This document shows positions 2,443 through 64,000 of a stretch of 64,000 nucleotides of DNA, piece by piece. The DNA is from Eunapius fragilis (Eukaryota; Porifera; Demospongiae; Spongillida; Spongillidae). The stretch is from positions 4,890,122 to 4,954,121 of the forward strand of contig OY811983.1 of NCBI GenBank assembly GCA_963681505.1. Direction: 5' to 3'. Position numbers and translations under genes: made by a program. The notes beneath the pieces are model-generated. The model searched no databases. It was given only the letters and a program-made list of their open reading frames with translations, and was not told where the DNA came from. Position 1 is the stretch's first letter. Each line of letters begins with the position of its first letter.

Positions 2443-2962
2443 GGTATATGTAGTGACAGTACAGTCACTTGAACTTAAAAGCCTGCCAACTGAAGTTCGA
2501 ATTGCATCAAATACATTGAACGATAAAAAGTCACGGGTCGAAATACGGGAACATTTGCAAGTTCCTTTAAAATCAATAGCGTGTAGTGAGAAGCATATGC
2601 ACACAACTATACAGAACACAACCTGTTCCAAACAGTGCAAGCGCTTATATAAAAAAGCCATGCAATGTCTAAATTATATAATATTATACTATACTTGCAC
2701 GTTTTTTTTTTTTTTTTTTAAAGGTATATGTAGTGACAGTACAGTCACTTGAACTAAAAAGCCTGCCAACTGAAGTTCGAATTGCATCAAATACATTGAA
2801 CGATAAAAAGTCACGGGTCGAAATACGGGAACATTTGCAAGTTCCTTTAAAATTAATAGCGTGTAGTGAGAAGCATATGCACACAACTATACAGAACACA
2901 ACCTGTTCCAAACAGTGCAAGCGCTTATATAAAAAAGCCATGCAATGTCTAGATTATATAAT
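2443..2962 (+). repeat. Tandem duplication, about 240-bp unit, 280-bp spacing
   Basis: The segments 2443-2682 and 2723-2962 are nearly identical. Both start GGTATATGTAGTGACAG and end just after the motif GCCATGCAATGTCT. They are separated by about 40 bp that includes a poly-T run. The second copy is also the outer end of the large inverted repeat (partner around 12840-13085). The frames open through it do not resemble a known protein. Confidence 0.9.
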
Positions 2963-3126
2963 GTCAAGCCTAATGTTGTTGTACTCTGATCATTGTTTCA
3001 ACCTCTTTAATTGGTTCCAATTTCCAGGTCATCATGCAGAAAATTCTTCCCCTGTCATCATATGTACATAAAACAAAAACAATAACATATTGTGGAATGA
3101 ATTAAATCATTTAACTCACCACTTAC

Positions 3127-3266
3127 CGCTCCCTGGCTTCAACAATCCTGTTATCCAAGATTATCTTCAGTGTCTGCTGATCTGTCATGTGCCAGAACCA
3201 CACACCACTTTTATGGTCAAAATGTTTGTGTTGAAGTGCACGTGACATGTGCTTTTGCAGATTCAC
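3127..3266 (-). other. Candidate exon (left-arm copy)
   Basis: On the minus strand an open frame includes HKHFDHKSGVWFWHMTDQQ and ends at a good splice donor (GAGCG|GTAAGTGG; last exon base 3127). The inverted partner at 12545-12686 keeps the same peptide with a few conservative changes and also ends at a donor (GATG|GTGAGT). Retention of both reading frame and donor suggests a real or recently real exon of an unrecognised gene. In this copy the upstream side is interrupted at 3266/3267 by the 1.17-kb repeat, so it is probably broken. I do not recognise the family. Confidence 0.35.
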
Positions 3267-4433
3267 TGATGTCCCCTTTATAGCTGCCCAGTTTATAGTT
3301 GCTTTAAACAACATTCCCATTTCTATTTATTGCACACCTTGATATTGAAGGTGATAATGAAGCACTTTTGTCCCACATATGGGCAAGGTAACACGCCTTA
3401 TTCAACATACTAAATTTAGTACTGACAGAAACATAACAAGCAATCAATGCACTACAAAGGCATATGTATAACTCAGTTTATTTAATATTGATATTGAACT
3501 TATACAACAATAAAAACAACCTTAATCTTTACAATACATGCAGCTACCTTTGCAAGTAAAATATACTACTTTTGTTTCCTGCTTCAACTGAACTCTCAAG
3601 GCCAAAATATGCTTATTGTGAATCAACGATGACATTGTATCTGTTGCAAAGTTGCATAGGTTGTATTTTATATAGATAAGGTTAGGACTTGTGCTTAGGA
3701 AATATAGGCAATACATGTAGAACACTCGTGTATGGCCGCCCACATCCCTCAAAAGTTCAAATCAGCAAAAAAAAACAATTATTACAAATCCTCAACATAG
3801 AATTAAAGTGTCCCAAATCATGTAAAATTTCATCTTCATGCATGTGACCAGGGGAAATCACTCTCTCACGTGACCAAAACCAAATAAATACATTAATAAT
3901 CATGTGACCAACCCCCCCCCCCCCCATTTCCCTTTAATGCAAGGTGGAAAGATGCTTTAAATGTGTCGTACTCGTTGTGTCCTTCTAGGCAGTCGCAGGG
4001 TTGGATTACAAGTGGATGAAGTCGACAAAAGATTCTAAGTTTGCAGAGTCTATCGTCGATACAATCCGAGGCAGTGAAAAAGATCATTATATCTTGAAGG
4101 CTGCAATCCCGCCACTGCCAGCTGCGGAAAAAGGTAATGACATTTCAAAATTAAAAACATGGTAATGTATTGTAATGAGATTGGTCAGTTTCCGCAAAAA
4201 TGAGCTCGCTATATATATAATTATATAAAGTTATAAAAATGATTCGCTTTGAAATCGCTACATCTCCAGAACGGTAAATGCTATTGACTTTCTATTTTCA
4301 ACACTTCATACTCATCATTTCTCTCTGGTAAACTCGATTATGGGCTCTTGCATTAGCTTAATTCGTGCCAGTGTTACAACGTCCGATACCCCTTGGAGTT
4401 CAAACCTGCCATATCTTTCGCAAGAAAATTCAA
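3267..4433 (+). repeat. 1.17-kb anonymous interspersed repeat, copy 1
   Basis: It starts TGATGTCCCC and ends AAGAAAATTCAA. A second copy in the same orientation lies at 13223-14414 and is about 96% similar by eye. The right arm of the inverted repeat lacks it (site near 12540-12544), so it is a discrete insertion. There are no terminal inverted repeats. The flanks are ATTCAC and TTCAC, while the empty site reads ATTCAC-ATCAA-TTCAC, so there is no clean target duplication. The class is unknown. Confidence 0.7.
3989..4133 (+). other. Exon-like segment inside the 1.17-kb repeat
   Basis: A pyrimidine-rich acceptor (GTGTCCTTCTAG) precedes an open frame starting AVAGLDYKWMKSTKDSK, which runs to a donor-like AAG|GTAATG. 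In the second repeat copy (from about 13970) a 2-nt difference shifts the frame, and a stop follows after about 36 codons. At least one copy is therefore not functional. It may be a captured exon or a relic of a host gene. No family is recognised. Confidence 0.25.
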
Positions 4434-5115
4434 TTCACTCCTAATTTGGTTTGTAGAGGGATCCTGTACCTATTCTGTTTGTTATTTTTTTTCTTTATCC
4501 GTTACGGGGATACAACTGTGCAAAGTAATCGCATATTTCCAGGTCGTTTCGCGCCATTTACCTATTACGACTGGCATGGTCGTTTAGAAATGCAATTACT
4601 TCCTGTTAAATAACTACGTCTCCGCCCATCTAAACACTATACAACAAGTACGGCTTCTTGCAAACGTCTGGTTCTGTTCCCCTTCTTGGCTTCTTCAACA
4701 TAGCGAGCAGAAGCTAAAGATTCGTAATACGTGGATTCAGCTGCCATCAGCCTGCACAACACGGTACGTACTCTGTAGGCCTACTAGTACGCGCATGCAC
4801 GTAGAAATCGAGCGTGTTGACTCGGTCAAACCAGAGATTATCTCTGGTCAAACTGCTTGAGTTCCAATTCATTTATGCGTGCACAACGCTGCAGAGCATG
4901 AAAGTGCACGGTGTCTAGGGTTAGCTTAATCTGAAACGCAATCCTTCCTTTTTGACTTCTACACACGCACAGATCATGCACCCCCTTGTAGCTACATGTA
5001 TTTACCAACATGTAGTACTCTCATTGGCCTATTAAAACCTCTTTCTTGTCTTCATTGGTGAACCAATTATATTTGGTTCTACAAAATAATATCCATACAA
5101 AATAAAATCCATAAG

Positions 5116-5116
<1 letters not shown>

Positions 5117-5168
<52 letters not shown>
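5117..5168. repeat. (AC)n microsatellite
   Basis: Pure AC dinucleotides. The inverted counterpart is the longer (TG)n tract at about 11769-11856, so the two arms have diverged in repeat number. Confidence 0.95.
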
Positions 5169-5170
<2 letters not shown>

Positions 5171-5519
5171 CACACACTCACATCCATACGCAACCTCAGA
5201 TCAGAGCAATTGGTGTCATTTAATTCTGTCAGAATGCTCCCACATGCTTAGTTTGCAATTGGTGCGTGCTTGGCATAGTTGATTGTTTGCCAAAAGGGGT
5301 CAGGCGATAGTGGGTGTGCTGTCCCCCTACCCTGAGTGTGACTGGAACCAAGGTGACCATTTGGTCAGCCCACACCTTGACGCTGGTCAAGGTAAGGTGG
5401 TTAGGCCAGGGTAGAAGCCAAAAGGGTGCTACCTGCTATTGATGTATAAACAATAACACCTGTAGCAATACATGTATAAGCAACGCAGTTGGCATTTAGC
5501 TGGAGTGCATCCTTTATCT

Positions 5520-5539
5520 GAACCTGCGGCAGCAGGTTC
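5520..5539 (+). other. 5'-terminal hairpin of copy A
   Basis: GAACCTGC and GCAGGTTC form an 8-bp stem with a GGCA loop, starting 3 nt inside the element end. The stem is identical in copies B, C and E. In copy B the loop is changed but the stem is intact. A subterminal ATATAGGATTGA follows immediately and also occurs in both arms of the 3' palindrome. Confidence 0.8.
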
Positions 5540-6038
5540 AATATAGGATTGATTGAGGGTTTATGAATGTCATTAATAAAACTTCACTAGCGTCTGGAGG
5601 GACAACGGAGAAACGGATCGCTTATCTCTTTATCGCGATGGAATGAGAGCACAACGATCTACAGTTCTACGTTTGTTCCGTGTCATAAAACGGTGCGGTT
5701 ATAGAGAAACAAACAATTTCCTGTTTCTCGTGCCCAGTCCTAAAATAATTCTCCATCGTCGTCGTCGTCGTCGTCGTCGTCTTCTTCTTCTTCTTCTTCT
5801 TAGGAAGGTATAACTCGAGCTAGGAACGGTTTTGGAGGACGGGAATAGTACCAATCGCTTCGAAATTTACCGGCACGTTATCCTTACATGTCATATAGAC
5901 ATACATATATCAAGTTCTATTTATTAATAATTTTAGGCAGTTATAAATACTCTAACCTGCACTAAATTTATTTGGTTGGTGTTCCAGTTTAATATATTAG
6001 TTGTTACTTTGGCTAATAGTGAAGTTCTTTTTCTAAAA

Positions 6039-6640
6039 ATGCAAAAGAAGAGATCTAAGCAACGAGCGGAATACCTCCAAAAGCAGTACGAGAACAAAGC
6101 TAAAGCCCGAGCGCTCTACAAGGCCAATCCCCCCCAAAAAGAAGGCCTCTGTACGCGACAGCTACAAGGCCGATCCCGAAATGAAGAAGGCCTCTGTACG
6201 CGACAGCTACAAGGCTGATATTGAATCTAAGCGATCTGCTAAAAGGTGGCGGCGATACGAAGAGGACCCCAAGGAGAACCGTGCTGCTCAAAGGCGGCGA
6301 TATGAAGAACCTCGAGGAGAACCGTGCTGCTCAAAGGCGGCGATATGAAGAACCTCGAGGAGAACCGTGCTGCTCAAAGGCGGCGATATGAAGAACCTCG
6401 AGGAGAACCGTGCTGCTAAAACTAAAGGCGGCGATATGAAGAGGACCTTGAGGAGAACCGTGCTGCTAAAAGGCGGCGGACCTCGAGGGAAATCGCGCTG
6501 CTAAAAGGGAGAAATATCAGCTACTATTAAGCATCTGAAAGGAGTCGGTATTGGAATGATCCCGCTGTCCGATTGGCTAAATGTGCTGCCGAGAGGACGC
6601 GGTACCGCAGGGGTCACAGAACTACCACTACCACCCAAAG
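6039..6640 (+). pseudogene. Basic 15-residue-repeat gene of copy A, exon 1, frameshifted
   Basis: It begins ATGCAAAAGAAGAGATCTAA, encoding MQKKRSKQRAEYLQKQ. The frame is broken around 6126 (a CCCCCC tract in place of the GATCCCG of the other copies) and meets a stop at about 6218. The 45-bp repeats are irregular, and several are shortened to about 40 bp. The exon end CCCAAAG|GTATGT at 6640/6641 is preserved. The intact homologue is on the minus strand at 28354-28940. Confidence 0.7.
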
Positions 6641-6698
6641 GTATGTTGTGGCATGTTGTATTAACATTAAAAAGCTGTGCATGCAACATTTGTACAGC

Positions 6699-6779
6699 AT
6701 AGTCGGGCGGCCCTACTACCGCGTTTCGTCGGGTTTGTCACCCTACTACCTGCGGGTAGTATGGCCCGCCCGACTATGT
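6699..6779 (+). other. Intronic compound hairpin, copy A
   Basis: An outer inverted repeat (CATAGTCGGGCGG with CCGCCCGACTATG) encloses an inner one (CCCTACTACC with GGTAGTA). It sits about 60 bp after the exon 1 donor. Equivalents lie at 28221-28297, 30715-30791, 31220-31296 and 63882-63968. In each, part of the stem has changed but pairing is largely kept. Confidence 0.65.
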
Positions 6780-6991
6780 ACACCACGGATCTGCACAAAA
6801 CCATTCACTTCACATGCATGATGACTCAACTGTGTGTACAGTAGTGTCTATTGTTTTAATCTGATAAAGCTTCCTTATCTGAAGACTTCCTCGTCTAGCC
6901 ATGTACTGTGAATGTTGCAACTGTATGAATATAGTTACAGTTGCAAGGGCTGAGAACTAAATAGCTGCAACTATATCCTTTTCCCATATAG

Positions 6992-7092
6992 CTACTCCTT
7001 GTATGAACCCAAATCTCATGCACCAATGGAGTATAATGGTGGTCTTGAAAAAGCTATTCCTAGGGGTAGTGATCTGCCTGTGCAGCAGTAAG
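6992..7092 (+). pseudogene. Exon 2 remnant of the basic-repeat gene, copy A
   Basis: After the acceptor TTTTCCCATATAG the sequence encodes YSLYEPKSHAP-EYNGGLEKAIPRGSD. It then jumps to GCAGCAGTAAGTAAG, missing about 75 bp that is present in copy C. It is a deleted relic of the exon seen whole at 27652-27970 (minus strand). Confidence 0.6.
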
Positions 7093-7460
7093 TAAGATAA
7101 GCCACCATTAGGTACTTCTAGCAGCACACTCACATTTATGTAGTGAAATAAAAACAGACCTTCTGCCCACACTCATAAAGCTGCAGACCCTGTCCACAGA
7201 TATTACCTCACATGAGAACATATCCTTATCGATCGATCTACATGCTGCCATGTAGTTCACTTCCTTAGTTCCCACACTACCCATCTATACAACTTAACTG
7301 CATATAGGCTACACCTCCATGTTTAGATGGGACCATTTTTACTGGATCAAATTTGACCAATAGAATTTTAGCACAACTGACACGTATACACCCCTTCCCT
7401 CCCTGTCATTAATATGATGGAATTGGACTCACAGTCTGCACACGTGTTAAGGCTTTGCAG

Positions 7461-7469
7461 GTATAAAAG
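7461..7469 (+). promoter_or_regulatory. TATA box for the proline-rich gene, copy A
   Basis: GTATAAAAG follows the conserved CACGTGTTAAGGCTTTGCAG. The same block precedes the gene in copies C and D. About 35 bp downstream is AAAAAGAG|GTAAAA, and ATATGTAG directly precedes the ATG, which suggests a 5'-UTR intron ending at the start codon. Confidence 0.6.
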
Positions 7470-7611
7470 CCACTCATCCGCTGAATAGTGCACTTAGCAA
7501 AAAGAGGTAAAATTTTTATAATACTCTATGTGCATGTGTAAAGGCTTTGCACTTTGCTTTAAAAAATAAAGAAGTAAAAATTTAATCATACTCTCTGTTA
7601 CGTATATGTAG

Positions 7612-7881
7612 ATGGCTGACGACCTTTGCGGGTTTTTCACCAACGAGGGGTCGGAGGAGGAACAGTACATTCATCCTTCAACTCCTCTCCCCTTCACCTC
7701 ACCACCTCCAGAAGCCCCGCTTCTGCCACCACCACCAGCAGCACAGCCCACACCACTACCAGCAGCTACTCCCGCCGGCACCACCAGCGCTGCCCCCACC
7801 GGCGCTCCTGCCTGCACCATCAGCCCTGCCCCCACCACCAGCAGTACTATTAAAGTTATTTGTTCTTGCATTAAGAGATAA
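7612..7881 (+). CDS. Proline-rich protein of the mobile element, short copy A version
   Basis: An 89-residue frame starts MADDLCGFFTNEGSEEE. It has the same acidic start as copies C and D (which read ADDLTGFFNQEGSEEEE and AEDLTGFFNQEGSEEEE), followed by Pro/Ala/Thr-rich sequence. It lacks the Arg/Gly-rich tail found at the end of the copy C protein and ends in a different frame after a shortened repeat tract. The ATG is chosen because CATGTAG/TATGTAG|ATG is conserved in all copies. It is probably decayed. No known domain is recognised; the acidic, proline-rich build resembles a low-complexity linker or activation-type region, but that is only composition. Confidence 0.45.
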   Translation: MADDLCGFFTNEGSEEEQYIHPSTPLPFTSPPPEAPLLPPPPAAQPTPLPAATPAGTTSAAPTGAPACTISPAPTTSSTIKVICSCIKR

Positions 7882-7960
7882 AGGGGATCATCCATCCTCT
7901 TCCTACATTTGATTATTGACTATGATACTGCTATGACACGGTGAAAAAAAACTTATGAAA

Positions 7961-8249
7961 CAAGTAAATAAAAACATTCTCTAACGAGAGAGTTGTTGGT
8001 ATATAGGATTGACCAATGGTGGTGTAAAAAGCATGGAAACAAGAGTGACAGAAATATTATTGGAAAATTGAAATAGGCCTATATTTAGCACACAATACAA
8101 CACACATGCCTGAATAATGGGCTAAATATAGGCCTATTTCAATTTTCCAATAATATTTCTGTCACTCTTGTTTCCATGCTTTTTACACCACCATTGGTCA
8201 ATCCTATATACCAACAACTCTCTCGTTAGAGAATGTTTTTATTTACTTG
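7961..8249. repeat. Terminal palindrome of copy A
   Basis: The arms 7961-8089 and 8121-8249 are perfect reverse complements (129 bp) around a 31-nt loop. The outer end CAAGTAAATAAAAAC...TTTACTTG coincides exactly with the 3' boundary of the whole element. Copy A differs from copies C and D at three arm positions, and each change is mirrored in the other arm. Confidence 0.95.
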
Positions 8250-8429
8250 TATATACTTGTGTGATCTGGAACCATACCAGGTGTCAATATTTTGGGGAGA
8301 TGGGGTATAACCGAAAATGAGGGAATTAGTTAAATGGAGGTGAGGCTTTCCCAGACTTTTAGGCTCAGGGTAGAATGAAAGTGAGGTTTTCCCAGGGGAT
8401 ACTCCAGGCTAGAATTTAGCTGGGAATTT

Positions 8430-9030
8430 AGTGTTGCCTTGTGCACTTACACACACACACACATGCACCCACACATGTGCATGCGCACGCACACGCACAC
8501 GCACACACACACACACACACACACATACACACACACACTATGGCCAGTCAGTCATTCACACATCAACATCAATGCTTTGCTATTGCAATTTATTTTATTT
8601 TCTAATTGTCGACCTACATACAAACATTAAACTGCCTTTAGCTGTCATCCTCATGCACACACCCACACACTCACATACCTACTCTCACACACCAGAAATA
8701 ATACATACGCACACGCAACACACTTGCATGGTGTGTGTATGTGTGTGCATGATAAAAGTGCACAAGATGATTTAGAAAAAGCAAAGGCTCCAATAGAAAT
8801 ACAAATGTAAATGCAAAAGAGAAACAGGATGACTGAGGCAGTTTTATGTTTGTATGTGGGTGGACAATTAGGAAACAACAGCAAAGCCCGGACGTTGATG
8901 TGTGAATGACTGACTGTCCATGGTATTTATGTGTATCCGTGTGTGTGTGTGTATGTGTGTGTGTATGTGTGTGTATGTGTGTGTGTATGTGTGTGTATGT
9001 GTGTGTGTATGTGTGTGTGTGAAGTGCACA
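8430..9030. repeat. AC/TG-rich nested inverted repeat
   Basis: The segment around CAGTCAGTCATTCACACATC and the CAAACATTAAACTGCC part at 8536-8650 recurs inverted at about 8836-8925. The same pair appears again in the right arm (about 10725-10830 and 11030-11135). AC tracts at 8493-8523 and TG tracts at about 8940-9020 flank them. The long Thr-His or Cys-Val frames here are microsatellite artefacts. Confidence 0.75.
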
Positions 9031-10329
9031 TGGCAACACCAGACATTTGTTACCAGATGTTTAAAAAATAGGTTCAAGACCTGTTCATCATCTGTCGATT
9101 TAACTCCCTAACAGCGAGGCTACCCAGGCCACAAAGGTCCAAATGTGTACTTTTAGTGTTTGTTTACGTAGATGTATAAAATGTTTGGTGAATGGGAACA
9201 ATAGCAAGTGCTTAATTCAGCTAATTCACACCTACAGCCTGGGAAAACCTCACTTCCATTCAAATTCTACTAGCTCAGGGGCCGCCCTCCAGTGCATCCA
9301 GGGAGGAACCAGTCTCAAGAGAGCCACACTCAAGGAAGCCACACTCAAGGGAGCCACTCTCCTCTGGAGCAGACAGAGAGGCATCACACTCAAGAGCCCA
9401 CAGAGTATCCCATGATCTCCAATCGGATATACATGTACCACTGACAACACCTAGGGTTGGCCAGCCCATGCAATGGATGGGCCGATAACATTAATGGAAT
9501 CCAGAAACTTTGTATTGTACATGTATACCACGTGATTTATATATGCTATTATAATGAATCAGTGTTCAAGTAGCACCTGAATGACGTAGTTATTCTATTC
9601 AGAACGAGGGTAAAAGAGACCGGACTGGAACATGGATATGGGGCAGTATTGGTCTCCAAGTATTACCCAAAGGGGGGGAAATCCCTTAGTTGGTTCAACA
9701 TTAATTTCATATAAGTTGAACACTGTAAATAAATTCTCTAGTAATGAACATGCTTCTGCAAGTTGTTGTAATAAGGTGCAGACCACATCTGCCTATAGAT
9801 GTACAGGCACGTTGCTCAGTGTGATCATGTATGCATGACAAATACAACTTGACTACATTATTACCCTGTACATGTTTCACATTGTCACACATATCACTGC
9901 ATGTAATCTGAATTACACAAGCCATTAAAGTGAGTGAATTGAATAAAGTTTCAACACCTATCATTACTGATAGTGGTTTGTAATTTCTATTAGATAAAAT
10001 GCAAGCTGACAGTACATGTATTCACATCCCACCATTGGAGATATCAGATACAAGCATATTTTTGCAGGGACTTAACATACATGTACATGTAACAATACCG
10101 CTGGCATTGAATGCTGTTGCTGTACACACACTCAAAAGACGATGAGGCATGAGAAGTGCCCTAATACCCCCCCTCCCTCACTTCTCAACCAACACTATAA
10201 ATTTCCTATCAGCTGATTATGAAATTGAAAATACAATCTAACATTGCACATTTCAACATGGAGTTTAAGCCAAAATATCAAAATTTGGTCCTTTGACAGA
10301 TGGTGATCATAAATGATAACAATACCTGC

Positions 10330-10380
<51 letters not shown>

Positions 10381-10589
10381 CTGGCATGCATTGCTGAAAG
10401 TTGAGGTGAACATAAATGTTCACACGTTCATTTCACATTGCTCATGTCCTTCCTACATGTATGTATGTATGTAAATCTGTTGTGTGTGTGTAACATTACA
10501 TCCACACAGTTACACCCAAGGAAGGACTATTCGCTTTTACGTAGACTTTTGCATGAGAAAACAAAGTCTTGTTTGTACCCACTCCAGTT
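9031..10589. other. Spacer between the inverted-repeat arms
   Basis: No gene is recognised. Within it, 9297-9372 holds several diverged copies of a short unit (GAGCCACACTCAAGG-like). An (AC)n tract lies at about 10336-10380. Confidence 0.6.
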
Positions 10590-11762
10590 TACAGCCCACA
10601 CATGCACACACACACACACAAACACACACAGCACACACACACATACACACACATACACACACATACACACACATACACACACACATACACACACAGACAC
10701 ATACACACACACACGGATACACATAAATACCATGGACAGTCAGTCATTCCCACATCAACGTCCGCGCTTTGCTGTTGTAATTTTATTTCCTAATTGTCCA
10801 CCCACATACAAACATAAAACTGCCTCAGTAATCCTGTTTCTCATTTGCATTTACATTTGTATTTCTATTGGAGCCTTTACTTTTTCTAAATTATCTTGTG
10901 CACTTTTATCATGCACACACATACACACACCATGCAAGTGTGTTGTGTGTGCGTATGTATTATTTCTGGTGTGTGAGAGTAGGTATGTGAGTGTGTGGGT
11001 GTGTGCATGTGATGAATAGGATGACAGCTAAAGGCAGTTTAATGTTTGTATGTAGGTCGACAATTAGAAAATAAAATAAATTGCAATAGCAAAGCATTGA
11101 AGTTGATGTGTGAATGACTGACTGGCCATGGTGGTGTGAACACGTGTGTGTGTGTATGTGTGTGTGTGTATGTGTGTGCGTGCGCATGTGTGTGTGTGTG
11201 TGCATGTGTGTGTGTGTAAGTGCACAAGGCAACACTAAATTCCCAGCTAAATTCTAGCCTGGAGTATCCCCTGGGAAAACCTCACTTTCATTCTACCCTG
11301 AGCCTAAAAGTCTGGGAAAGCCTCACCTCCATTTAACTAATTCCCTCATTTTCGGTTATACCCCATCTCCCCAAAATATTGACACCTGGTATGGTTCCAG
11401 ATCACACAAGTATATATAAAGGATGCACTCCAGCTAAATGCCAACTGCGTTGCTTATACATGTATTGCTACTGGTGTTATTGTTTATAAATCAATGGCAG
11501 GTAGCACCCTTTTGGCTTCTACCCTGACCTAACCACCTTACCTTGACCAACGTCAAGGTGTGGGCTGACCAAATGGTCACCTTGGTTCCAGTCACACTCA
11601 GGGTAGGGGGACAGCACACCCACTGTCGCCTGACCCCTTTTGGCAAACAATCAACTATGCCAAGCACGCACCAATTGCAAACTAAGCATGTGGGAGCATT
11701 CTGACAGAATTAAATGACACCAATTGCTCTGATCTGAGGTTGCGTATGAATGTGAGTGTGTG

Positions 11763-11857
<95 letters not shown>

Positions 11858-13116
11858 CTTATGGATTTTATTTTGTATGGATATTATTTTGTAGAACCAA
11901 ATATAATTGGTTCACCAATGAAGACAAGAAAGAGGTTTTAATAGGCCAATGAGAGTACTACATGTTGGTAAATACATGTAGCTACAAGGGGGTGCATGAT
12001 CTGTGCGTGTGCAGAAGTCAAAAAGGAAAGGTTGCGTTTCAGATTAAGCTAGCCCTAGACACCGTGCACTTTCATGCTCTGCAGCGTTGTGCACGCATAA
12101 ATGAACTGGAACTCAAGCAGTTTGACCAGAGATAATCTCTGGTTTGACCGAGCCAACACGCTCGATTTGTACGTGCATGCGCGTACTAGTAGGCCTACAG
12201 AGTACGTACCTTGTTGCGCAGGCTGATGGCAGCTGAATCCACGTACTACGAATCTTTAGCTTCTGCTCGCTATGTTGAATAAGCCAAGAAGAGGAACAGA
12301 ACCAGACGTTTGCAAGAAGCGAAGACGCCGTACTTGTTGTATAGTGTTTAGATGGGCGGAGACATAGTTATTTAACAGGAAGTAATTGCATTTCTAAAAG
12401 ACCATGCCAGCGTAAATGGCGCGAAACGACCTGGAAATATGCAATTACTTTGCACAGTTGTATCCCCGTAACGGATAAAGAAAAAAAATAACAAACAGAA
12501 TAGGTACAGGATCCCTCTACAAACCAAATTAGGAGTGAATTGATGTGAATCTGCAAAAACACAACATGTCACGTGCACTTCAACACAAACATTTTGACCA
12601 TAAAAGTGGTGTGTGGTTCTGGCACATGACAGATCAGCAGACACTGAAGATGATCTTGGATGACAGGATTGCTGAAGCCAGGGATGGTGAGTTAAGTGAT
12701 TTCATTCCACAATATGTTATTGTTTTTGGTTTATGTACATATGATGACAGGGGAAGAATTTTCTGATGACCTGGAAATCGGAACCAATTAAAGAGGTTGA
12801 AACAATGATCAGAGTACAACAACATTAGGCTTGACATTATATAATCTAGACATTGCATGGCTTCTTTATATAAGCGCTTGCACTGTTTGGAACAGGTTGT
12901 GTTCTGTATAGTTGTGTGCATATGCTTCTCACTACACGCTATTAATTTTAAAGGAACTTGCAAATGTTCCCGTATTTCGACCCGTGACTTTTTATCGTTC
13001 AATGCAATAATTTATTTGGTGCAATTCGAACTTCAGTTGGCAGGCTTTTTAGTTCAAGTGACTGTACTGTCACTACATATACCTTTAAAAAAAAAAAGAA
13101 ATACGTGCAAGTATAG
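10590..13116 (-). repeat. Right arm of the large inverted repeat
   Basis: It is the reverse complement of the left-arm blocks. At 11416/11417 it runs straight across the site where copy A sits in the left arm. At about 12540-12544 it runs across the site of the 1.17-kb repeat. It therefore supplies both empty sites. It includes (TG)n at about 11769-11856. Confidence 0.85.
12545..12686 (+). other. Candidate exon (right-arm copy)
   Basis: The open frame encodes MSRALQHKHFDHKSGVWFWH, then MTDQQTLKMILDDRIAEARD, and ends at a donor GATG|GTGAGT. The left-arm homologue differs at only a few residues (Lys-Ile and Asn-Arg-Ile-Val in place of Lys-Met and Asp-Arg-Ile-Ala) and also has a donor. A small upstream frame at about 12272-12361 (start MLNKPRRGTEPDVCKKRRRR) is likewise partly conserved in the other arm. 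Together they could be 5' exons of an unidentified gene. No known family is recognised. Confidence 0.35.
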
Positions 13117-17070: not shown

Positions 17071-17839
17071 CAAGTAAACAAAAACATTCTCTAACGAGAA
17101 AGTTGGTGGGCATATAGGATTGACAATGTTGGTGTAAAAAGCACGGAAACAAGTGTGACAGAAATGTTACTGGAAAATTGAAATAGGCCTATATTTAGCC
17201 CATTTTCTCAGGCGTGCGCTGCCTAAATGTGACTGGGCTAAATATAGGCCTATTTCAATTTTCCAGTAACATTTCTGTCACACTTGTTTCCGTGCTTTTT
17301 ACACCAACATTGTCAATCCTATATGCCCACCAACTTTCTCGTTAGAGAATGTTTTTATTTACTTGTTTCATAAGTTTTTTTTTCTTTTTTTTTAATTAAG
17401 AACTTGCTAGAACTTGCTAGATGGCCATAGAACTTGCAACAAAATAGGGTATTTCTCGCTGTAGTTTCTTTCTAGATGTGATATGTGTCCAAATGACATG
17501 CTAGGATAACGTGCCGGTAAATTCTGAAAAGATTGGTACTATTGTCGTTCTTTAAAACCGTTCGTAGCTCGAGTTATACCTTCCTAAGGAAGACGACGAC
17601 GACGACGAACATTTTTTGGGGGAATGGGCACGAGAAGCAGGTTCTTTGTTTGTCTGGAAGCGCATAGTTTAATGACATGAAACTAGCATGAAAACGTAGA
17701 TCTTGGTGTTGTCGTTCGATTGCTGCAACGAGATAAGTGATCCGTTTCTCCGTTGTCCCTCCCGACGCGATTTAAAATTTTTAATGACTTCATCATTCCT
17801 CAATCAATCCTATATTGAACCTGCTGACGCAGGTTCAGA
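17071..17839 (-). mobile_element. Helitron-like element, copy B (769-bp deletion derivative)
   Basis: Read on the minus strand it has the 5' TC-hairpin end (17839 down) and the GAC/GTC trinucleotide tract, then jumps to the 3' terminal palindrome. Both genes are missing. The flanks are A (17070) and T (17840), as in the other copies. Its palindrome (17071-17365) differs from copies A, C and D at about eight places, all mirrored in both arms; I found one unmirrored difference (AAAC versus AAAT near the outer end). Confidence 0.8.
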
Positions 17840-21689: not shown

Positions 21690-22961
21690 CTGTCTCAACA
21701 ACATCTGGAAATTTCTGAGTTCAGATTATGAAAATTGTAGTAGTACGTCGAACATGACAAGTGTTTAGGTCCTAAACCATAGTTTAGGTACTAAACTATA
21801 ATATGGTTTAGGACCTAAGCAAGCAATGCCCATGTATGAGTTCACATGTTAATGAATATGACATGACATATGTTTTATTGTATGGTAACCCTACATGGGA
21901 AGATGGGAGGGGTCAAAAAAGGGTCACATTACTGTTGTTTAGTAGTTAACCCTTTGGATGCCATATAAGTATCCTTATAGCTCCATATAGAGTGCCAATC
22001 AAACTGTAAATAGCCTTGAAGTTGCTGACTAATGGTATCTATATACGTCCATGTGTTCGGCACCTGTGGCTACATAAAGAGGGTGATGACCAATTGGAGC
22101 TAGAGATCCCTCAGTCCCCTGGAGTTATCCTAGTGCCCAGGCCTCCATGGAGTGGTCCCTGGTTCCCATGTCTCATGCAAGTGGCCCTGTAGGACTCCAA
22201 GTACTCAGTAGTGCATTATTTAGAACGAATATTCACACCTATGCTGACTGCTGACTCATACATACATCCATGCATTAAGCCAACATGTCGCCTCTCCCCC
22301 TGTGCAAACCAAATGGAGTGTTGTGCTAACAGTTTAGGTAGTACCATAGGAATGTGCAAGGTGGTATTAAGCACAGCCCTTCACACACAACTCCCCCAAA
22401 TCCAAGTCCATATCATCCCTCTATGGGGTGCTTGTGTATGTGCATGTGTGCGTGTGCATATGGTGTAGGGGTGTGCATGTGTGTGAGCATGTGTGTGTGC
22501 ATGTAGGGTGTGTATATGTGTGTGCATGTGTGTGTATGGTGGTGTATGGGTGTGCATGTATTGGTATATTGAGATCTTGTGGGACATATTTATTGTGAAC
22601 AAGAAATAAGCAATACATCTAAATATATTAACCAATGGGTGTGTGTGACATGTGTGTAATAATGGAACTTAAACATCAAACCAAGCAAACTGTATGAAAA
22701 TGAGTACACATTGGAGTCACACACATAACTTCTATGCATATGAAAACATGCACACATGTTAATAAACATACACCTATTCATGTGCACACACACCACTTCT
22801 AGTTTATATGAAGGGTTCTTTACACATCAGTATAAAGTTTTTGAGGTTGTAGTGGTACACAGTAAACAGCCAATCAAATCAGCATGTAGGTCAGCTGTTA
22901 CAAAGTCCACCTCTTTAAACACCAAACCAACCAATCACATGTATTTACCAGTCTCTTTCCC

Positions 22962-23161
22962 NNNNNNNNNNNNNNNNNNNNNNNNNNNNNNNNNNNNNNN
23001 NNNNNNNNNNNNNNNNNNNNNNNNNNNNNNNNNNNNNNNNNNNNNNNNNNNNNNNNNNNNNNNNNNNNNNNNNNNNNNNNNNNNNNNNNNNNNNNNNNNN
23101 NNNNNNNNNNNNNNNNNNNNNNNNNNNNNNNNNNNNNNNNNNNNNNNNNNNNNNNNNNNNN
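22962..23161. other. Assembly gap (200 N)
   Basis: Exactly 200 N, a conventional placeholder size. It sits at the centre of the inverted repeat and abuts (GA)n. Confidence 1.

Positions 23162-23245
<84 letters not shown>
23162..23245. repeat. (GA)n microsatellite
   Basis: About 42 GA dinucleotides directly after the gap, followed by GATA units. It probably extends into the gap. Confidence 0.95.
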
Positions 23246-23247
<2 letters not shown>

Positions 23248-25120: not shown

Positions 25121-25409
25121 CAAGTAAATAAAAACATTCTCTAACGAGAGAGTTGTTGGTATATAGGATTGACCAATGGTGGTGTAAAAAGCACGGAAAC
25201 AAGAGTGACAGAAATTTTACTGGAAAATTGAAATAGGCCTATATTTAGCCCATTACTCAGGCATGTGTGTTATATTGTGTGCTAAATATAGGCCTATTTC
25301 AATTTTCCAGTAAAATTTCTGTCACTCTTGTTTCCGTGCTTTTTACACCACCATTGGTCAATCCTATATACCAACAACTCTCTCGTTAGAGAATGTTTTT
25401 ATTTACTTG
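25121..25409. repeat. Terminal palindrome of copy C
   Basis: The 129-bp arms are perfect reverse complements around a 31-nt loop. When both are read in element orientation, the sequence is the same as that of copy D (33087-33375), loop included. Confidence 0.95.
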
Positions 25410-25867
25410 TTTCATAGGTTTTTTTTCACCGTAGTCGATGAAATGTAGGAAGAGCACATAGAATTTGGACGATCCCCTTTAATTCTTAATGCAATAACAA
25501 ACAGAAAACATGCCAGCAATGACACAAAGTGCTCAGAGCTTGGGTGTGTGTGTGTACCTTTGGCAGTTGAGGTTTATGGATGTTGGGGTCAAGAAACACA
25601 GACAAACTTTTCTCAACTGGCAGCGCGCCTGGCAATTAGATCAAATTGTTGCAAGTCCCAGGCCACTTCGGCTCTCTATGGCAGGTTAAACTTGGTCCTA
25701 GTTAGAGCGAATGCCAGAGCTCTGCTGTCCCGTTCAATGGCAACTGGATGTTAGTCTCCTCACCTTCTCCGTTTCAGTGTATTGTTTTTTGTTTAGTAAA
25801 ATTGTGTAGCTTAAAACTGTAAATGTTGTATATGTAGTATCATTTCAATAAATAACTTTAATAATAA
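25410..25867 (-). other. 3' region of copy C with unidentified insert
   Basis: 25410-25500 matches copy D just before its palindrome. About 25505-25790 has no counterpart in copy D and no recognisable product. 25793-25867 is the left copy of a 75-bp direct repeat flanking the retrocopy. Confidence 0.5.
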
Positions 25868-25869
25868 GA

Positions 25870-25910
<41 letters not shown>

Positions 25911-26634
25911 AGGTAATAATAAAGTTACAAGAGATTACATGAAAGGAATAAATGCACATACAGAACTACATTATTATATAAACTAACATATATGGCTAAC
26001 AACAACACAACCTAACATATACAATGTACTGGCACACTAACACACTCGATCACTCGCACACAGAACTAAAAGTCATCTAAACCATCAAAGGAACTTAATG
26101 TTCCCAAGACGGAGGTAGAATTTCCTCTCTGGATTGCCACAGAAAGGCGCTGGAGTAAGAATTGGTAGGATTGTGAGTCTCCAGTGGTTTTGTGCAGACG
26201 ATGGCCAAGGTCCTTAAGAAAGGACAATGTTTCAGCACCAAACACACCAAGAGACTCACATGCTATGGGAACAAAGAAGTATTTAGCTCCAAGAGAGGAA
26301 TACTTCTTCCTCTTTTGAGATTCAGCCTCTGCTGCTACCAATCCTGGGCCTCTTTCAGCAGTGGAGAGATATGATGGTGCCAAGGTGTCTCTGCATGTAG
26401 CATCCCACACAAGGAGTTTCCCCTCTTTCCAGGGAACCATTGAAATTCCATCTGGCCTTTTATAATTATATGAATTTGTACTATTAATTATTGGTTGTCC
26501 TCGCCCGCGCCCTCGTCTCCTGCGGGGACGTCCTCCTCCCCGGCCTCCCCGCCATGCTGGGTTCTGCCAGGGTGGCAGTGGCCATGCAGGCCAGGGAGGG
26601 AGCACAGGCGGCGGTGGCAGCGGGGGCAGCGCTC
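25868..26634 (-). mobile_element. 5'-truncated polyadenylated retrocopy inside copy C
   Basis: It is flanked by identical 75-bp direct repeats (25793-25867 and 26635-26709). On the minus strand it ends in 46 A (T at 25873-25918). It starts within a second copy of the proline-rich gene's tail and continues in frame into a new domain (26066-26605). These are the features of a LINE-type target-primed insertion of a transcript, with an unusually long target duplication. An alternative is an unequal tandem duplication, but that does not explain the poly-A. Confidence 0.65.
26066..26605 (-). CDS. RGG tail fused to an RPDG...WDAT domain (retrocopy frame)
   Basis: The frame is 179 residues. Residues 1-48 repeat the Trp/Pro-rich and Arg/Gly-rich tail of the proline-rich gene (motifs PLPPWQNPAWRGGRGGGR and RRRRGRGRGQ). 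About residues 49-160 form a different domain with RPDGISMVPWKEGKLLVWDA early and LGHRL, SYQFLLQRLSVAIQRGNSTS late. Domains of this pattern recur, to my recollection, at the C-terminus of repetitive-element proteins in invertebrates. The RPD plus WDAT spacing resembles PD-(D/E)XK nuclease motifs, but the catalytic Lys is not assignable by eye. The frame is 5'-truncated; the first Met is internal to the parent protein. Confidence 0.5.
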   Translation of the reverse strand: MLPPWPAWPLPPWQNPAWRGGRGGGRPRRRRGRGRGQPIINSTNSYNYKRPDGISMVPWKEGKLLVWDATCRDTLAPSYLSTAERGPGLVAAEAESQKRKKYSSLGAKYFFVPIACESLGVFGAETLSFLKDLGHRLHKTTGDSQSYQFLLQRLSVAIQRGNSTSVLGTLSSFDGLDDF

Positions 26635-26709
26635 TTAGTAAAATTGTGTAGCTTAAAACTGTAAATGTTGTATATGTAGTATCATTTCAATAAATAACTT
26701 TAATAATAA
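26635..26709. repeat. 75-bp direct repeat, right copy
   Basis: TTAGTAAAATTGTGTAGC through TTTAATAATAA is identical to 25793-25867. It overlaps the stop codon of the proline-rich gene (26700-26702). If the insert and one repeat are removed, the 3' untranslated region becomes continuous, as expected for a target-site duplication. Confidence 0.8.
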
Positions 26710-27251
26710 TAATTATAATTATATGTACTATAAATTATTTGTTGTCCTCGCCCGCGCCCTCGTCTCCTGCGGGGACGTCCTCCTCCCCGGCCTCCCCGCC
26801 ATGCTGGCCACTGCCAGGGTGGCAGTGGCCAGGGAGGGAGCACAGGCGGCGGTTGCAGCGCTGGTGGTGCCGGCGGGGGAAGCGCTGGTGGTGCCGGCGG
26901 GGGTAGCGCTGGTGGTGCCGGCGGGGGCAGCGCTGGTGGTGCCGGTGGGGGCAGCGCTGGTGGTGCCGGCGGGGGTAGCGCTGGTGGTGCCGGCGGGGGC
27001 AGCGCTGGTGGTGCCGGCGGGGGCAGCGCTGGTGGTGCCGGCGGGGGCAGCGCTGGTGGTGCCGGCGGGGGTAGCGCTGGTGGTGCCGGCGGGGGCAGCG
27101 CTGGTGGTGCCGGCGGGGGTAGCGCTGCTGGTAGTGGCGGGGCTTCTGGAGGTGGCGGGGTGAAGGGGAGAGGAGTCGGAGGATGTATGTCATCCTCTTC
27201 CTCCTCTGACCCCTCTTGATTAAAAAACCCCGTAAGGTCATCTGCTGCCAT
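26700..27251 (-). CDS. Proline-rich RGG-box protein of the mobile element (copy C, intact)
   Basis: The frame is 183 residues. It has an acidic start (MAADDLTGFFNQEGSEEEED), then about 11 repeats of an 8-residue Pro/Ala unit (PPAPPALP, 24 bp each), then a Trp/Pro segment (VLPPWPLPPWQWPAWRGG) and an Arg/Gly tail (RPRRRRGRGRGQ). It ends in a Tyr/Asn run. An RGG box suggests RNA or single-stranded DNA binding, which is inference. The ATG is fixed by the conserved CATGTAG|ATGG, probably an acceptor of a 5'-UTR intron. Copy D has the same layout with a frameshift, and copy A a short form. Repeat number varies between copies. Confidence 0.65.
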   Translation of the reverse strand: MAADDLTGFFNQEGSEEEEDDIHPPTPLPFTPPPPEAPPLPAALPPPAPPALPPPAPPALPPPAPPALPPPAPPALPPPAPPALPPPAPPALPPPAPPALPPPAPPALPPPAPPALPPPAPPALPPPAPPALQPPPVLPPWPLPPWQWPAWRGGRGGGRPRRRRGRGRGQQIIYSTYNYNYYY

Positions 27252-27406
27252 CTACATGTACGTGACAGAGACAGAGAGTATGATTTTAAAAAATTTTACC
27301 TTATTCTTTTTTCAAGCAAGTTTACACGTGAATCCACATAGAGTATATTATTAAATTCTTACCTCTTTTTTCAAAGTGCACTATATTTCAGCGGGTGCAT
27401 GACTGA

Positions 27407-27416
27407 CTTATATACC
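27407..27416 (-). promoter_or_regulatory. TATA box for the proline-rich gene, copy C
   Basis: The minus strand reads GGTATATAAG after CACGTGTTAAGGCTTTGCAG, matching copies A and D. A donor-like AAAGAG|GTAAGA lies about 45 bp downstream. Confidence 0.6.
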
Positions 27417-27651
27417 TGCAAAGCCTTAACACGTGTGCAGACTGTGCTATAATTCTATTGGTCCGATTCCATCATATAAACGGCATGTGCTAAAATTTTA
27501 TTGGTCAAATTTGAAAATGCTCCAATCTAAACATGGAGGTGTAGCCTACATGAAGTAAAGATGGATAGTGTGAGAACTCAGGAAGTGAACTACATGACTG
27601 CATGTAGAACTGGGATAACATGGCACCATGTAGATTGATAAGGATATGTTT

Positions 27652-27970
27652 TCAGGTGAGTGTGGACCGGGTCTGCAGCGTTATGAGTGTTTCTCCTATT
27701 TTCATTCTATTTATTTCACGGATAGTTTTTAGCAATGACCCTGCTTTTGCTCTTCGTACACTTAGTGCTTTAGAAACCAATGCCTCTGCCCCAATCTTAC
27801 TTACTGCTGCACGGGCAGATCTAGTAACAACCTTTTGAGCTAGCAATGGATGAGACTTACAAAAGGCATCATTTACTTCACTTAGAAGCTCACTATCCCT
27901 AAGAATAGCCTTTTCAAGACCACCATTATACTCCATTAGTGCATGAGATTTGGGTTCATACAAGGAGTAG
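27652..27970 (-). CDS. Basic-repeat gene, exon 2 (copy C)
   Basis: The acceptor TTCTCCCATATAG precedes exon base 27970. Joined to exon 1 (which ends with two bases of a codon) the reading frame is continuous and gives Gln-Ser-YSLYEPKSHALMEYNGG. It then contains SELLSEVNDAFCKSHPLLAQ and VSKIGAEALVSKALSVRRAK and is open to 27652. The true 3' end is unclear: GCAGCA|GTAAGT inside it could be another donor. Copies A and D retain parts of it. Function is unknown. Confidence 0.5.
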
Positions 27971-28220
27971 CTATATGGGAGAAGGATATGGTTGCAGTTA
28001 TTGTCATTTCACCTATAGTTCTCAGCCCTTGCAACTGCAATTATATTCATACAGTTGCAACACATGTACATGGCTAGACAGATAAGGAAGCCTTCAAATA
28101 AGGAAGCCTTTTTATACATCAGATTAGTAAAACAATAGACACTATTACTGTACACACAGTTGAGTCACCATGCATGCTTTACATGTGAAGTGAATGGTTT
28201 TGTGCAAATCCGTGCTGTAC

Positions 28221-28297
28221 ATCGTCGGGCGGGCCCTACTACCGCGTTTGGTCAGGTAGAAGGGTGACAAGCCCGACCAAACACCGCCAGACTATGC
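28221..28297. other. Intronic compound hairpin, copy C
   Basis: The outer arms GTCGGGCGG and CCGCCAGAC, and the inner arms CCTACTACCGCGTTTGGTC and GACCAAACACC, give alternative foldings. It lies in the intron of the basic-repeat gene. Confidence 0.55.
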
Positions 28298-28353
28298 TCT
28301 ACAAATGTTGCATGCACAGCTTTTTAATGTTAATACAACATGCCATAACATAC

Positions 28354-28940
28354 CTTTGGGTGGTAGTGGTAGTTCTGTGACCCCTGCGGTACCGCGTCCT
28401 CTCGGAAGCACATTTAGCCAATCGGACAACGGGGTCATTCCAATACCGACTCCTTTGAGATGCTTTAATGGCAGCTGAATTGTCCTCGTATTTCTGCCTG
28501 TTAGCAGCGCGGTTCCCCTCGAGGTCCTCTTCATATCGCCGCCTTTTAGCAGCACGGTTCTCCTCGAGGTCCTCTTCATATCGCCGCCTTTTAGCAGCAC
28601 GGTTCTCCTCGAGGTCCTCTTCATATCGCCGCCTGTTAGCAGCGCGGTTCCCCTCGAGGTCCTCTTCATATCGCCGCCTGTTAGCAGCGCGGTTCCCCTC
28701 GAGGTCCTCTTCATATAGCCGCCTTTTAGCAGCACGGTTCTCCTCAAGGTCCTCTTTATATCGCCGCCTTTTAGCAGATCGCTTAGATTCAATATCTGCG
28801 TTGTAGCTGTCGCGTACAGAGGCCTTCTTCTTTTCGGGATCGGCCTTGTAGAGCGCTCGGGCTTTAGCTTTGTTCTCGTCTTGCTTTTGGAGGTATTCCG
28901 CTCGTTGCTTAGATCTCTTCTTTTGATTACGCGAAGGCAT
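28354..28940 (-). CDS. Basic-repeat gene, exon 1 (copy C, intact)
   Basis: The exon encodes 195 codons plus two bases and starts MPSRNQKKRSKQRAEYLQKQ. Residues about 1-50 are Lys/Arg-rich, with the units YKADPEKKKASVRDSY and YNADIESKRSA. Six repeats of a 15-residue unit ([KN]RRRYEEDLE[EG]NRAA, 45 bp) follow, then a conserved end with RSRYWNDPVVRLAKC and RYRRGHRTTTTTQ. It looks like a charged helical or coiled repeat, probably nuclear and nucleic-acid binding. To my recollection similar Lys/Arg-Tyr repeats precede helicase regions in some invertebrate Helitron-like proteins. The exon end CCCAAAG|GTATGT is conserved in all four copies that keep the gene. Upstream TTG codons are not used as the start; the ATG has the context AAAAATGCC. 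Confidence 0.65.
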
Positions 28941-29192
28941 TTTTAGAAAAACAACTTCACTAGCCAAAGTAACAACTAAACTGCGATAGGAACACCAAAT
29001 ATTTTTTGTGCAGGTTAGAGTATTTATACTGCCTAAAATTATTAATAAATATCTATTACATACATTATTAAATAGAAGTTGATATGTGTCTATATGACAT
29101 GTATGGATAACGTGCCGGTAAATTTCGAAGCGATTGGTACTATTCCCGTCCTTCTAAACCGTTCCTAGCTCGAGTTATACCTTCCTAAGAAG

Positions 29193-29217
29193 ACGACGAC
29201 GACGACGATGAAGAATT
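29193..29217. repeat. GAC trinucleotide tract, copy C
   Basis: A GAC/GTC tract is kept at the same place, next to GAAGGTATAACTCGAGC, in copies A, B, C and E with different lengths. Confidence 0.8.
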
Positions 29218-29447
29218 ATTTTAGGACTGGGCACGAGAAACAGGAAATTGTTTGTTTCTCTATAACCACACCGTTTTATGACACGGTACCAACGTAGAAC
29301 TGTAGGTCGTTGTACCCTCATTCTATCGCAATAAAGAGATAAGCGATCCGTTTCTCCGTTGTCCCTCCAGATGCTAGTGAAGTTTTATTAATGACATTCA
29401 TCAACCCTCAATCAATCCTATATTGAACCTGCTGCCGCAGGTTCAGA

Positions 29448-29675
29448 TACACATGATTTCTGGGCACGAGATCGCTGCGCTGCATGTAAATCGCTGCGCT
29501 GCGTCATCAGTCGTTGCGCTGCGCGTGACCGACTTTTGGCACTAATCACATCCCATATACGCCTACCACTTTTGATCCCGTAACATATAGTGTAACATAT
29601 ATCGGTACAGGATGTTTACGGTAATCGATCCAACATTGTTACAGGCACCGTAACAGGAAAAAATTTCTTGTTGTG
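29448..29675. other. Host flank of copy C and junction to copy D
   Basis: 29448-29575 is the inverted paralogue of about 14745-14841, recognisable by the repeated CGCTGCGCTGC. About 29580-29675 is unrecognised and joins directly to the internal sequence of copy D. Confidence 0.6.
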
Positions 29676-29723
29676 TATCGCAGTTTAGTTGTTGCTTTGG
29701 CTAGTGAAGTTGTTTTTCTAAAA

Positions 29724-30657: not shown

Positions 30658-31027
30658 GTATGTTATGGCATGTTGTATTAACATTAAAAAGCTGTGCATG
30701 CAACATTTGTAGAGCATAGTCTGGCGGTGTTTGGTCGGGCTTGTCACCCTTCTACCTGACCAAACGCGGTAGTAGGGCCCGCCCGACGATGTACAGCACG
30801 GATCTGCACAAAACCATTCACTTCACATGTAAAGCATGCAACTGTGTGTACAGTAGTAGTGTCTATTGTTTTAATCTGATGTATAAAAAGGCTTCCTTAT
30901 GTGAAGGCTTCCTTATCTGTCTAGCCATGTACATATGTTGCAACTGTATGAATATAATTACAGTTGCAAGGGCTGAGAACTATAGGTGAAATGACAATAA
31001 CTGCAACCATATCCTTCTCCCATATAG

Positions 31028-32194: not shown

Positions 32195-32203
32195 GTATAA
32201 AAG
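32195..32203 (+). promoter_or_regulatory. TATA box for the proline-rich gene, copy D
   Basis: GTATAAAAG after CACGTGTTAAGGCTTTGCAG, the same arrangement as in copies A and C. Confidence 0.6.
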
Positions 32204-33013: not shown

Positions 33014-33086
33014 GAGATAAAAGGGATCGTCCAAATTATATATGCTCTTCCTACATTTCATCGACGGTGAAAAAAAACCTATGAAA

Positions 33087-33375
33087 CAAGTAAATAAAAA
33101 CATTCTCTAACGAGAGAGTTGTTGGTATATAGGATTGACCAATGGTGGTGTAAAAAGCACGGAAACAAGAGTGACAGAAATTTTACTGGAAAATTGAAAT
33201 AGGCCTATATTTAGCACACAATATAACACACATGCCTGAGTAATGGGCTAAATATAGGCCTATTTCAATTTTCCAGTAAAATTTCTGTCACTCTTGTTTC
33301 CGTGCTTTTTACACCACCATTGGTCAATCCTATATACCAACAACTCTCTCGTTAGAGAATGTTTTTATTTACTTG
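33087..33375. repeat. Terminal palindrome of copy D
   Basis: The 129-bp perfect arms and 31-nt loop match copy C. The upstream AAACCTATGAAA is also shared with copies A and C. Confidence 0.95.
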
Positions 33376-63146: not shown

Positions 63147-64000
63147 TCTGAACCTGCGGCAGCAGGTTCAATATAGGATTGATTGAGGGTTGATGAATGT
63201 CATTAATAAAACTTCACTAGCGTCTGGAGGGACAACGGAGAAACGGATCGCTTATCTCTTTATCGCGATGGAATGAGAGCACAACAATCTACAGTTCTAC
63301 GTTAGTTCAGTGTCATAAAACAGTGTCGTTATAGAGAAACAAACGATTTCCTGTTTCTCGTGCCCAGTCCTAAAATAATTCTTGGTCGTCGTCGTCGTCG
63401 TCTTCTAATTCTTCTTAGGAAGGTATAACTCGAGCTACAAACGGTTTTGAAGAACGGCAATAGTACCAATCGCTTCGAAATTTACCGGCACGTTATCCTT
63501 ACATGTCATATAGACAGATATATATCAAGTTATATTTAATAATGATAAACAATACATTTTTATTAATAATTTTAGGCAGTATAAATACTCTAACCTGCAC
63601 TAAATTTATTGGTGCTCTTAGTATCGCATTAGTTGTTACTTTGGCTAGTGATATTGTTTTTCTAAAAATGCCTAAAGGAAGAGGACCTCGGGAAACCGCG
63701 CTGCTAAAAAGCAGAAATACGAGGACTGTCATTAAAGCATCTGAAAGGAGTCGGTATTGGAATGACCCTGCTGTCCGATTGGCTAAGTGTGCTGCCGAGA
63801 GGATGCGGTACCGCAGGGGTCACAGAACTACCACTACCACCCAAAGGTATGTTAACATAAAAAAGCTGTGCATGCGTACAGCATAGTCGGGCGGCCCTAC
63901 TACCGCGTTTGGTGGGCTTGTCACCCTACTACCTGACCAAACGCGGTGGTAGGGCCCGCCCGACTATGTACAGCACGGATCTGCACAAAACCATTCACTT
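63147..64000 (+). mobile_element. Helitron-like element, copy E (runs off the window)
   Basis: The 5' end TCTGAACC with the hairpin (63150-63169) follows host A (63146). The GTC tract (about 63387-63405), the start of the basic-repeat gene and the intronic hairpin follow in the usual order. Confidence 0.75.
63668..63846 (+). pseudogene. Basic-repeat gene, exon 1 (copy E, internally deleted)
   Basis: The frame MPKGRGPRETALLKSRNTRT, then IKASERSRYWNDPAVRLAKC and RYRRGHRTTTTTQ, ends at the conserved donor with phase 2 intact. Nearly all the 15-residue repeats are gone, and the segment GPRETALLKSRNTRT is the wrong frame of the repeat. The exon is open but lacks its main body. Confidence 0.6.

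Follow-up and report, generated by a model that had tools for sequence, protein, structure and literature searches.

Helitron copies in the window

The window is a 64,000 nt stretch of the Eunapius fragilis genome (contig OY811983.1, positions 4,890,122 to 4,954,121 of the forward strand) and carries several copies of a Helitron group whose 3′ ends are long palindromes. Copy A is a non-autonomous Helitron at 5517..8249 on the + strand, with TC...CTTG termini and inserted at A^T; its 5′ end reads TCTGAACC... and its 3′ end ...ATTTACTTG (5517 starts TCTGAACCTGCGG... and 8249 ends ...TTTACTTG). It sits in the left arm of a large inverted repeat spanning 2794–13004, the arm blocks of which are 2794–3034/12764–13004, 4653–5543/11390–12320, 8247–8475/11191–11419 and 8652–8878/10783–11009. 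The inverted duplicate of the host repeat in the other arm (11381..11430, − strand) reads ...ccttta^tatatac... without interruption, and this empty site indicates that A inserted between A and T without a target duplication. Long runs of C were noted by eye in this part of the window, as were (CA)n/(TG)n microsatellites (~1134–1159, 1749–1780, 630–697 and 11765–11856).

The other copies in the window vary in length and completeness. A short Helitron at 17071..17839 on the − strand has a B-type palindrome (17071–17365) and its 5′ end at 17839, and copy C occupies 25121..29447, also on the − strand, with its palindrome at 25121–25409. Copy D (palindrome 33087..33375, + strand) carries a C-type palindrome but lacks its 5′ part, with similarity to C from ~29658. 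Copies C and D (25121–33375) are arranged head to head, ~210 bp apart, with their 3′ palindromes outward; an origin as one recent inverted duplication was considered and dropped, the bodies being 2–9% different in most of the longer aligned blocks. The 5′ part of a further copy lies at 63147..64000 (+ strand) and runs past the window end. All four of the 5′ ends in the window start with TC. Another long inverted repeat at 22042–24182 has arm blocks of 458 and 413 bp (98–99% identical) with 368 nt between the inner blocks, and may represent a different long-hairpin element.

The terminal palindrome of copy A

The palindrome of copy A is composed of a left, body-side arm (7961..8089, + strand) and a right, terminal arm (8121..8249, + strand) that are perfect reverse complements of 129 bp each, separated by a 31-nt loop (8090..8120, + strand) that in other copies faces the opposite way relative to the body; one further pair is present beyond the arms, at 7960/8250. 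The original prediction described a 289-bp terminal palindrome, and its 129-bp perfect arms are as described, although the palindrome is not uninterrupted since the loop splits the arms. Single-stranded DNA of the region 7930–8262 is predicted to fold at −155.1 kcal/mol, whereas 100 shuffled sequences average −27.3. The right arm ends in CTTG, which is the 3′ end of the element, and a T follows directly in 77 of 78 independent copies (see below). On the − strand, the outer end of the left arm reads CTTG and then T, and the base preceding this arm is A in 77/78 copies. RepHel may thus be able to cut at this second CTTG^T end too, judging from its sequence.

Two much smaller palindromes were noted by eye. 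One is a hairpin nested within the right arm (8219..8232, + strand; TCTCT-CGTT-AGAGA) with a 5-bp stem 17 nt before the end, near the usual place of a Helitron terminator hairpin but inside the long palindrome; canonical Helitron1 elements have their short hairpin at 10–12 nt. The second is at the 5′ end of copy A (TGAACCTGC-GGCA-GCAGGTTCA, 5519..5540, + strand), where this 22-bp palindrome is the only one seen by eye and nothing comparable to the 3′ palindrome is present. The expectation that Helitron 3′ hairpins are usually short agrees with Helraiser, in which the terminator is a 19-bp palindrome located 11 nt from the end (PMC4778049).

Relationship to RepHel-encoding elements

A relative of copy A at another locus (L069) has a 1995-codon RepHel frame with matches to Helitron_like_N (2.9e-25), PIF1 (1.3e-20), DUF6570 and OTU domains, and among its motif matches are HYH at 827, YVTGY at 968 and a Walker A sequence, GVGGTGKS, at 1280. 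A proline-rich protein is also encoded in L069, without a Pfam match at E 0.01. Copy A retains remnants of the flanking ORFs and lacks the RepHel core; its alignment to L069 matches up to ~1556 and from ~1633, flanking most of the 1995-codon frame, and copy A is therefore an internally deleted Helitron. The 5′ end of L069 was not found, its 5′ part being truncated against another repeat, and the 5′ motif was not found in a further locus (L169). The ORFs of these Helitrons also contain short coding repeats of variable copy number (RRRYEEDLEENRAAK-like and PPAPPAL-like; 26700–27251, 28299–28967 and L069:7980–8513).

The group has an HUH/Y2 Rep joined to an SF1 helicase, insertion at A^T without target duplication, and a 5′ TC, all of which are expected of a Helitron. 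The canonical 3′ CTRR of Helitron1 is not present, and because the end is CTTG (in 75/78 copies) we file the group as Helitrons with a non-canonical end rather than as canonical Helitron1. Palindromes of similar form lie downstream of two further RepHel frames, one with 131-bp perfect arms separated by 25 nt (L170) and the other with 134-bp perfect arms separated by 35 nt (L171); the arms share 75% (L170) and 61% (L171) identity with those of A, and both palindromes are tied to the RepHel frames by position and orientation only. At a fourth RepHel copy (L172) no palindrome was found in 3.5 kb at the expected 3′ end. The palindrome is thus present at three of the four RepHel copies inspected, with the end of the fourth possibly lying outside the segment and missed.

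Abundance and sampling of the palindromes

In the 218.9-Mb genome (24 contigs) the outer 32 bp of the arm has more than 3,000 matches (1661 + 1682) at ≤3 mismatches, and the body flank immediately before the palindrome has 372 + 360. The A palindrome is identical at 40/40 scored places (40 scored among 982 candidates), and the F palindrome is likewise identical at all 40 scored places. A total of 111 distinct palindrome copies were collected, mostly by a matching 32-bp arm end or as best matches to A, B or L004 and with a single set of loci chosen by flank, so the sample is non-random. Ten were removed before counting (three cut or containing N, and seven with a poorly covered or replaced arm), and from the remaining 101 we set aside 17 copies designated G′, three others (L086–L088), two with a replaced arm and one with a duplicate flank, leaving 78 independent copies; loci L130–L172 are outside this set. 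In the reference palindromes of subfamilies A, B, C, E, F and G, the outer stem is perfect over 129–132 bp. One identical B palindrome is found on different bodies (L102–L109 and L130–L160), joined at the same A-rich stretch, as if elements exchange 3′ ends.

Mirrored changes in the palindrome arms

As noted in the original prediction, the arms have no differences in copies A, C and D, and one in copy B. Copies A and C differ at three columns that are mirrored in both arms, with no one-sided columns. The changes between B and C are mirrored too, although their number was put too low at about eight; there are 13 mirrored columns between the B-type and C palindromes, including gap columns. The unmirrored base of B is private to that copy, with the other 39 of the 40 scored places sharing one state that is one step from B. 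We read all 39 of these, and whole-palindrome inversion aside there are no differences from the perfect B reference. No arm difference is present in 40 of the 78 copies, and 38 have arm differences. An assembly or polishing artefact copying one arm onto the other could be suspected where arms are near-identical and close together, but the retention of differences in these 38 copies and the identity of subfamily palindromes at 40 scored places each make this barely credible.

Six haplotypes occur in at least two copies and five of these have perfect arms. All ten pairwise comparisons among the five show mirrored columns (3–40) and no one-sided columns. The sixth (L056/L057) runs against this pattern in sharing an uncorrected arm difference of seven alignment columns, though one adjoining the loop. 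The pattern is different in the single copies, where changes are mostly one-sided. A parsimony reconstruction (78 copies, 49 haplotypes) gives 35 mirrored, 11 one-sided, 9 pairing-restoring and 1 other substitutions on internal branches, and 30 mirrored, 132 one-sided, 2 restoring and 3 other on terminal branches; event counts vary with tie rules, and the contrast between 35/11 and 30/132 mirrored to one-sided changes has a Fisher p of 7.8e-13. We tentatively ascribe the 30 mirrored changes on terminal branches, which tell against the model, to unsampled subfamilies. A comparison of all 156 arms is not decisive: the arm's own partner is strictly nearest for 27 and there are 85 ties, and the 44 for which another copy's arm is nearer weigh against arm correction but are also what private decay predicts.

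Deletions are mirrored in several copies. The same 11 bp are missing from both arms of L079, L162, L163 and L166, and 8 bp from both arms of L164; with L079 as query there are two further places at 100% identity and several size variants. One-sided deletions are also present, in the left arm of L165 (11 bp) and L167 (10 bp) and in the right arm of L168 (~11 bp), and, falling on either side, they favour neither arm as the template. Ordinary compensatory mutation, with selection alone keeping the arms paired, might be entertained because Helraiser transposition is reduced by deletion of its terminal hairpin (PMC4778049). It is very improbable here, however, given the mirrored 8- and 11-bp deletions and the lack of any one-sided difference between the perfect amplified haplotypes; under selection, one-sided intermediates should have transposed.

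Decay after insertion and probable passenger palindromes

We compared 43 singleton haplotypes, with gaps excluded, to the nearest perfect haplotype. Thirteen of them have more than three one-sided changes and together contribute 106 one-sided, 9 mirrored and 4 other changes. The other 30 have three or fewer one-sided changes each and contribute 32 one-sided and 32 mirrored changes, 11 of the mirrored ones coming from the F copy. The number of mirrored changes per copy is thus no higher in older copies. Old copies with as much divergence between their arms as between copies had been named in the original prediction as evidence against it. Old copies do have diverged arms, but this does not count as a refutation, since correction only at transposition predicts it.

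Two sets of palindromes that were set aside from the 78 are informative. In the 17 G′ copies the sequences flanking the palindrome on its two sides are alike, and these copies are therefore probably carried by another repeat. They contain 38 distinct changes, none of which is mirrored, over the 85 positions of the inner stem that can be compared in these palindromes, whose left arm lacks its outermost 36 bp; four of the changes are common to 2–3 copies. Similarly, L086–L088 share 16 one-sided columns common to all three, and all 15 columns that vary among them are one-sided. Because the changes are unmirrored in passengers and mostly one-sided in old copies, arm correction seems to be tied to the transposing lineage, with the arms equalised there and decaying after insertion.

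These data bear on the alternative that host template switching or gene conversion acts between the arms of resident copies at any time, independently of transposition. Template switching in yeast is reported to make the arms of inverted repeats alike and to invert their spacers (PMC8604942), and the process has been proposed for RNA hairpins (PMC8794818). Both signatures, arm homogenisation and spacer inversion, are present in the Helitron palindromes. Resident copies nonetheless accumulate mainly one-sided changes (106, with 9 mirrored, in old copies, and 0/38 mirrored in the inner stem of the passengers), which is not the behaviour of a process acting on resident repeats without transposition, and we consider this explanation unlikely.

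Inversion of the loop

A new finding here is that many copies have the loop turned round with respect to the body. In 42 B-type copies, 39 of which have distinct 3′ flanks, the loop is in the normal orientation in 17 and flipped in 25. Both orientations are found with body type b1 (15 normal, 4 flipped) and b3 (1 normal, 7 flipped), and the loop is flipped in all six b4 copies and all eight b2 copies, some of the latter having equal flanks; L145, L151 and L159 are counted as b2 rather than b1 because they have the b2 motif further upstream. In L130, which has a mixed flank, the loop is normal. Flips among the 78 copies include 1/24 in A, 4/13 clear cases in C and 1/22 clear cases in E, and the G loop matches the reversed F loop with a score of 8.2 (maximum −3.8 over 500 shuffles). 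For the A-type, 21 of the 40 identical places are cross-readable and all 21 are in one orientation. The mixed B-type flips and the stable A-type together indicate that inversion recurs, although not in every round.

Spacer inversion is the second hallmark of template switching, and two loop orientations are also seen in parvoviruses. Parvoviruses such as AAV have terminal hairpins, two loop orientations and an HUH-type Rep. Rolling-hairpin replication of this type in every round, with the 3′ end self-priming and RepHel resolving the hairpin at a site in the left arm, would account for the 17 normal and 25 flipped B-type loops, and in nearly all copies the left arm does offer CTTG^T on its opposite strand. 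We regard it as improbable, since the 21 cross-read A-type copies share a single orientation and nothing like the 3′ palindrome is seen by eye at the 5′ end, such that neither inversion in every round nor hairpins at both ends are seen; moreover, hairpin transfer alone would swap mismatches rather than remove them.

Proposed mechanism

The proposal that, in connection with transposition, one arm serves to re-copy or convert the other is supported by the mirrored-only differences between amplified haplotypes, the mostly one-sided changes in single copies, the absence of mirrored changes in passengers (0/38), the mirrored deletions and the loop inversions. Snap-back synthesis, the route given as an example in the original prediction, is consistent with this re-copying but is not separated by the data from hairpin mismatch repair or template switching. 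On balance we favour, with some reservation, transposition via a hairpin of single-stranded DNA, with one arm correcting the other or serving as its template. The palindrome forms the 3′ terminus of a Helitron group that was active recently, and displacement of the element strand by RepHel would allow the 129-bp arms to fold as a full-length hairpin. Where the arms differ by a base or a small loop, one arm would then be corrected or re-copied from the other; the outcome is evident in the amplified haplotypes, and the molecular step is what we propose. Correction at the hairpin stage would mean that new lineages begin with identical arms; after insertion the arms mutate independently, as is seen in the single copies. 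Occasional inversion of the whole palindrome, which flips the loop, is also observed and could arise by crossing over between the arms, by intermolecular template switching, or by a RepHel nick at the second CTTG^T end. Speculatively, the hairpin could also serve as a terminator or second-strand origin.

A more elaborate scheme is a hybrid rolling-circle/rolling-hairpin Helitron with a 3′ hairpin end, in which RepHel can cut at CTTG^T on either strand, and the arms are made equal and the loop turned round as the hairpin is resolved. This would constitute a self-maintaining terminus linking Helitrons to parvovirus-like replicons, although we think it quite doubtful.

Relationship to known systems

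Helitrons are assumed to have a single-stranded DNA stage, for which there is little direct evidence. Under our preferred reading of correction in a transposition hairpin, this large natural family seems to record the hairpin step, with arms equal at birth and diverging later. The mismatch between its arms would in that case date each insertion from its own sequence, and the chemistry of transposition could be read from how arms are corrected and loops inverted. Long palindromes are usually unstable, and the family also illustrates how a eukaryotic genome can retain one that is long and perfect.

The group shares with Helraiser and other Helitrons an HUH and Y-xxx-Y Rep, a Pif1-type helicase, the 5′ TC, A^T insertion without target duplication and a 3′ hairpin. 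It departs from Helraiser, with its 19-bp palindrome and CTAG/CTRR end, in having a ~130-bp hairpin, a CTTG end, co-evolving arms and a flipping loop. Compared with parvoviruses, the palindrome is at one end only and does not flip each round, the likeness lying in a terminal palindrome with two loop orientations and an HUH-type Rep. Rolling-circle plasmids have single-strand origins in which a long hairpin forms in the single-stranded rolling-circle product, and the Helitron palindrome would resemble these in its long hairpin. Helitrons of Fusarium carry asymmetric inverted repeats, and their terminal hairpins are short (PMC5148889).

Arm homogenisation and spacer inversion are shared with template switching at inverted repeats, which concerns short inverted repeats in resident DNA (PMC8604942; PMC8794818), in contrast to the ~130-bp arms tied to a transposing lineage here. 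Perfect inverted repeats with concerted arms of up to 142 bp and paired substitutions are described in mitochondrial genes of Nematomorpha (PMC6649704), although these are in mitochondrial coding DNA with no transposon, and here the palindrome is a Helitron terminus. Arm homogenisation is thus an already known process. A long self-homogenising Helitron terminus is not announced in the surveyed literature: titles and abstract openings, largely of papers outside subscription journals, mention no Helitron with such a long terminal palindrome or concerted arms.

Palindrome-ended elements are also found as tail-to-tail pairs, 53 bp apart at L069:9225–9865 and 11 bp apart at L050:1522–2110, and such pairs are a possible route by which a palindrome of this kind first arose.
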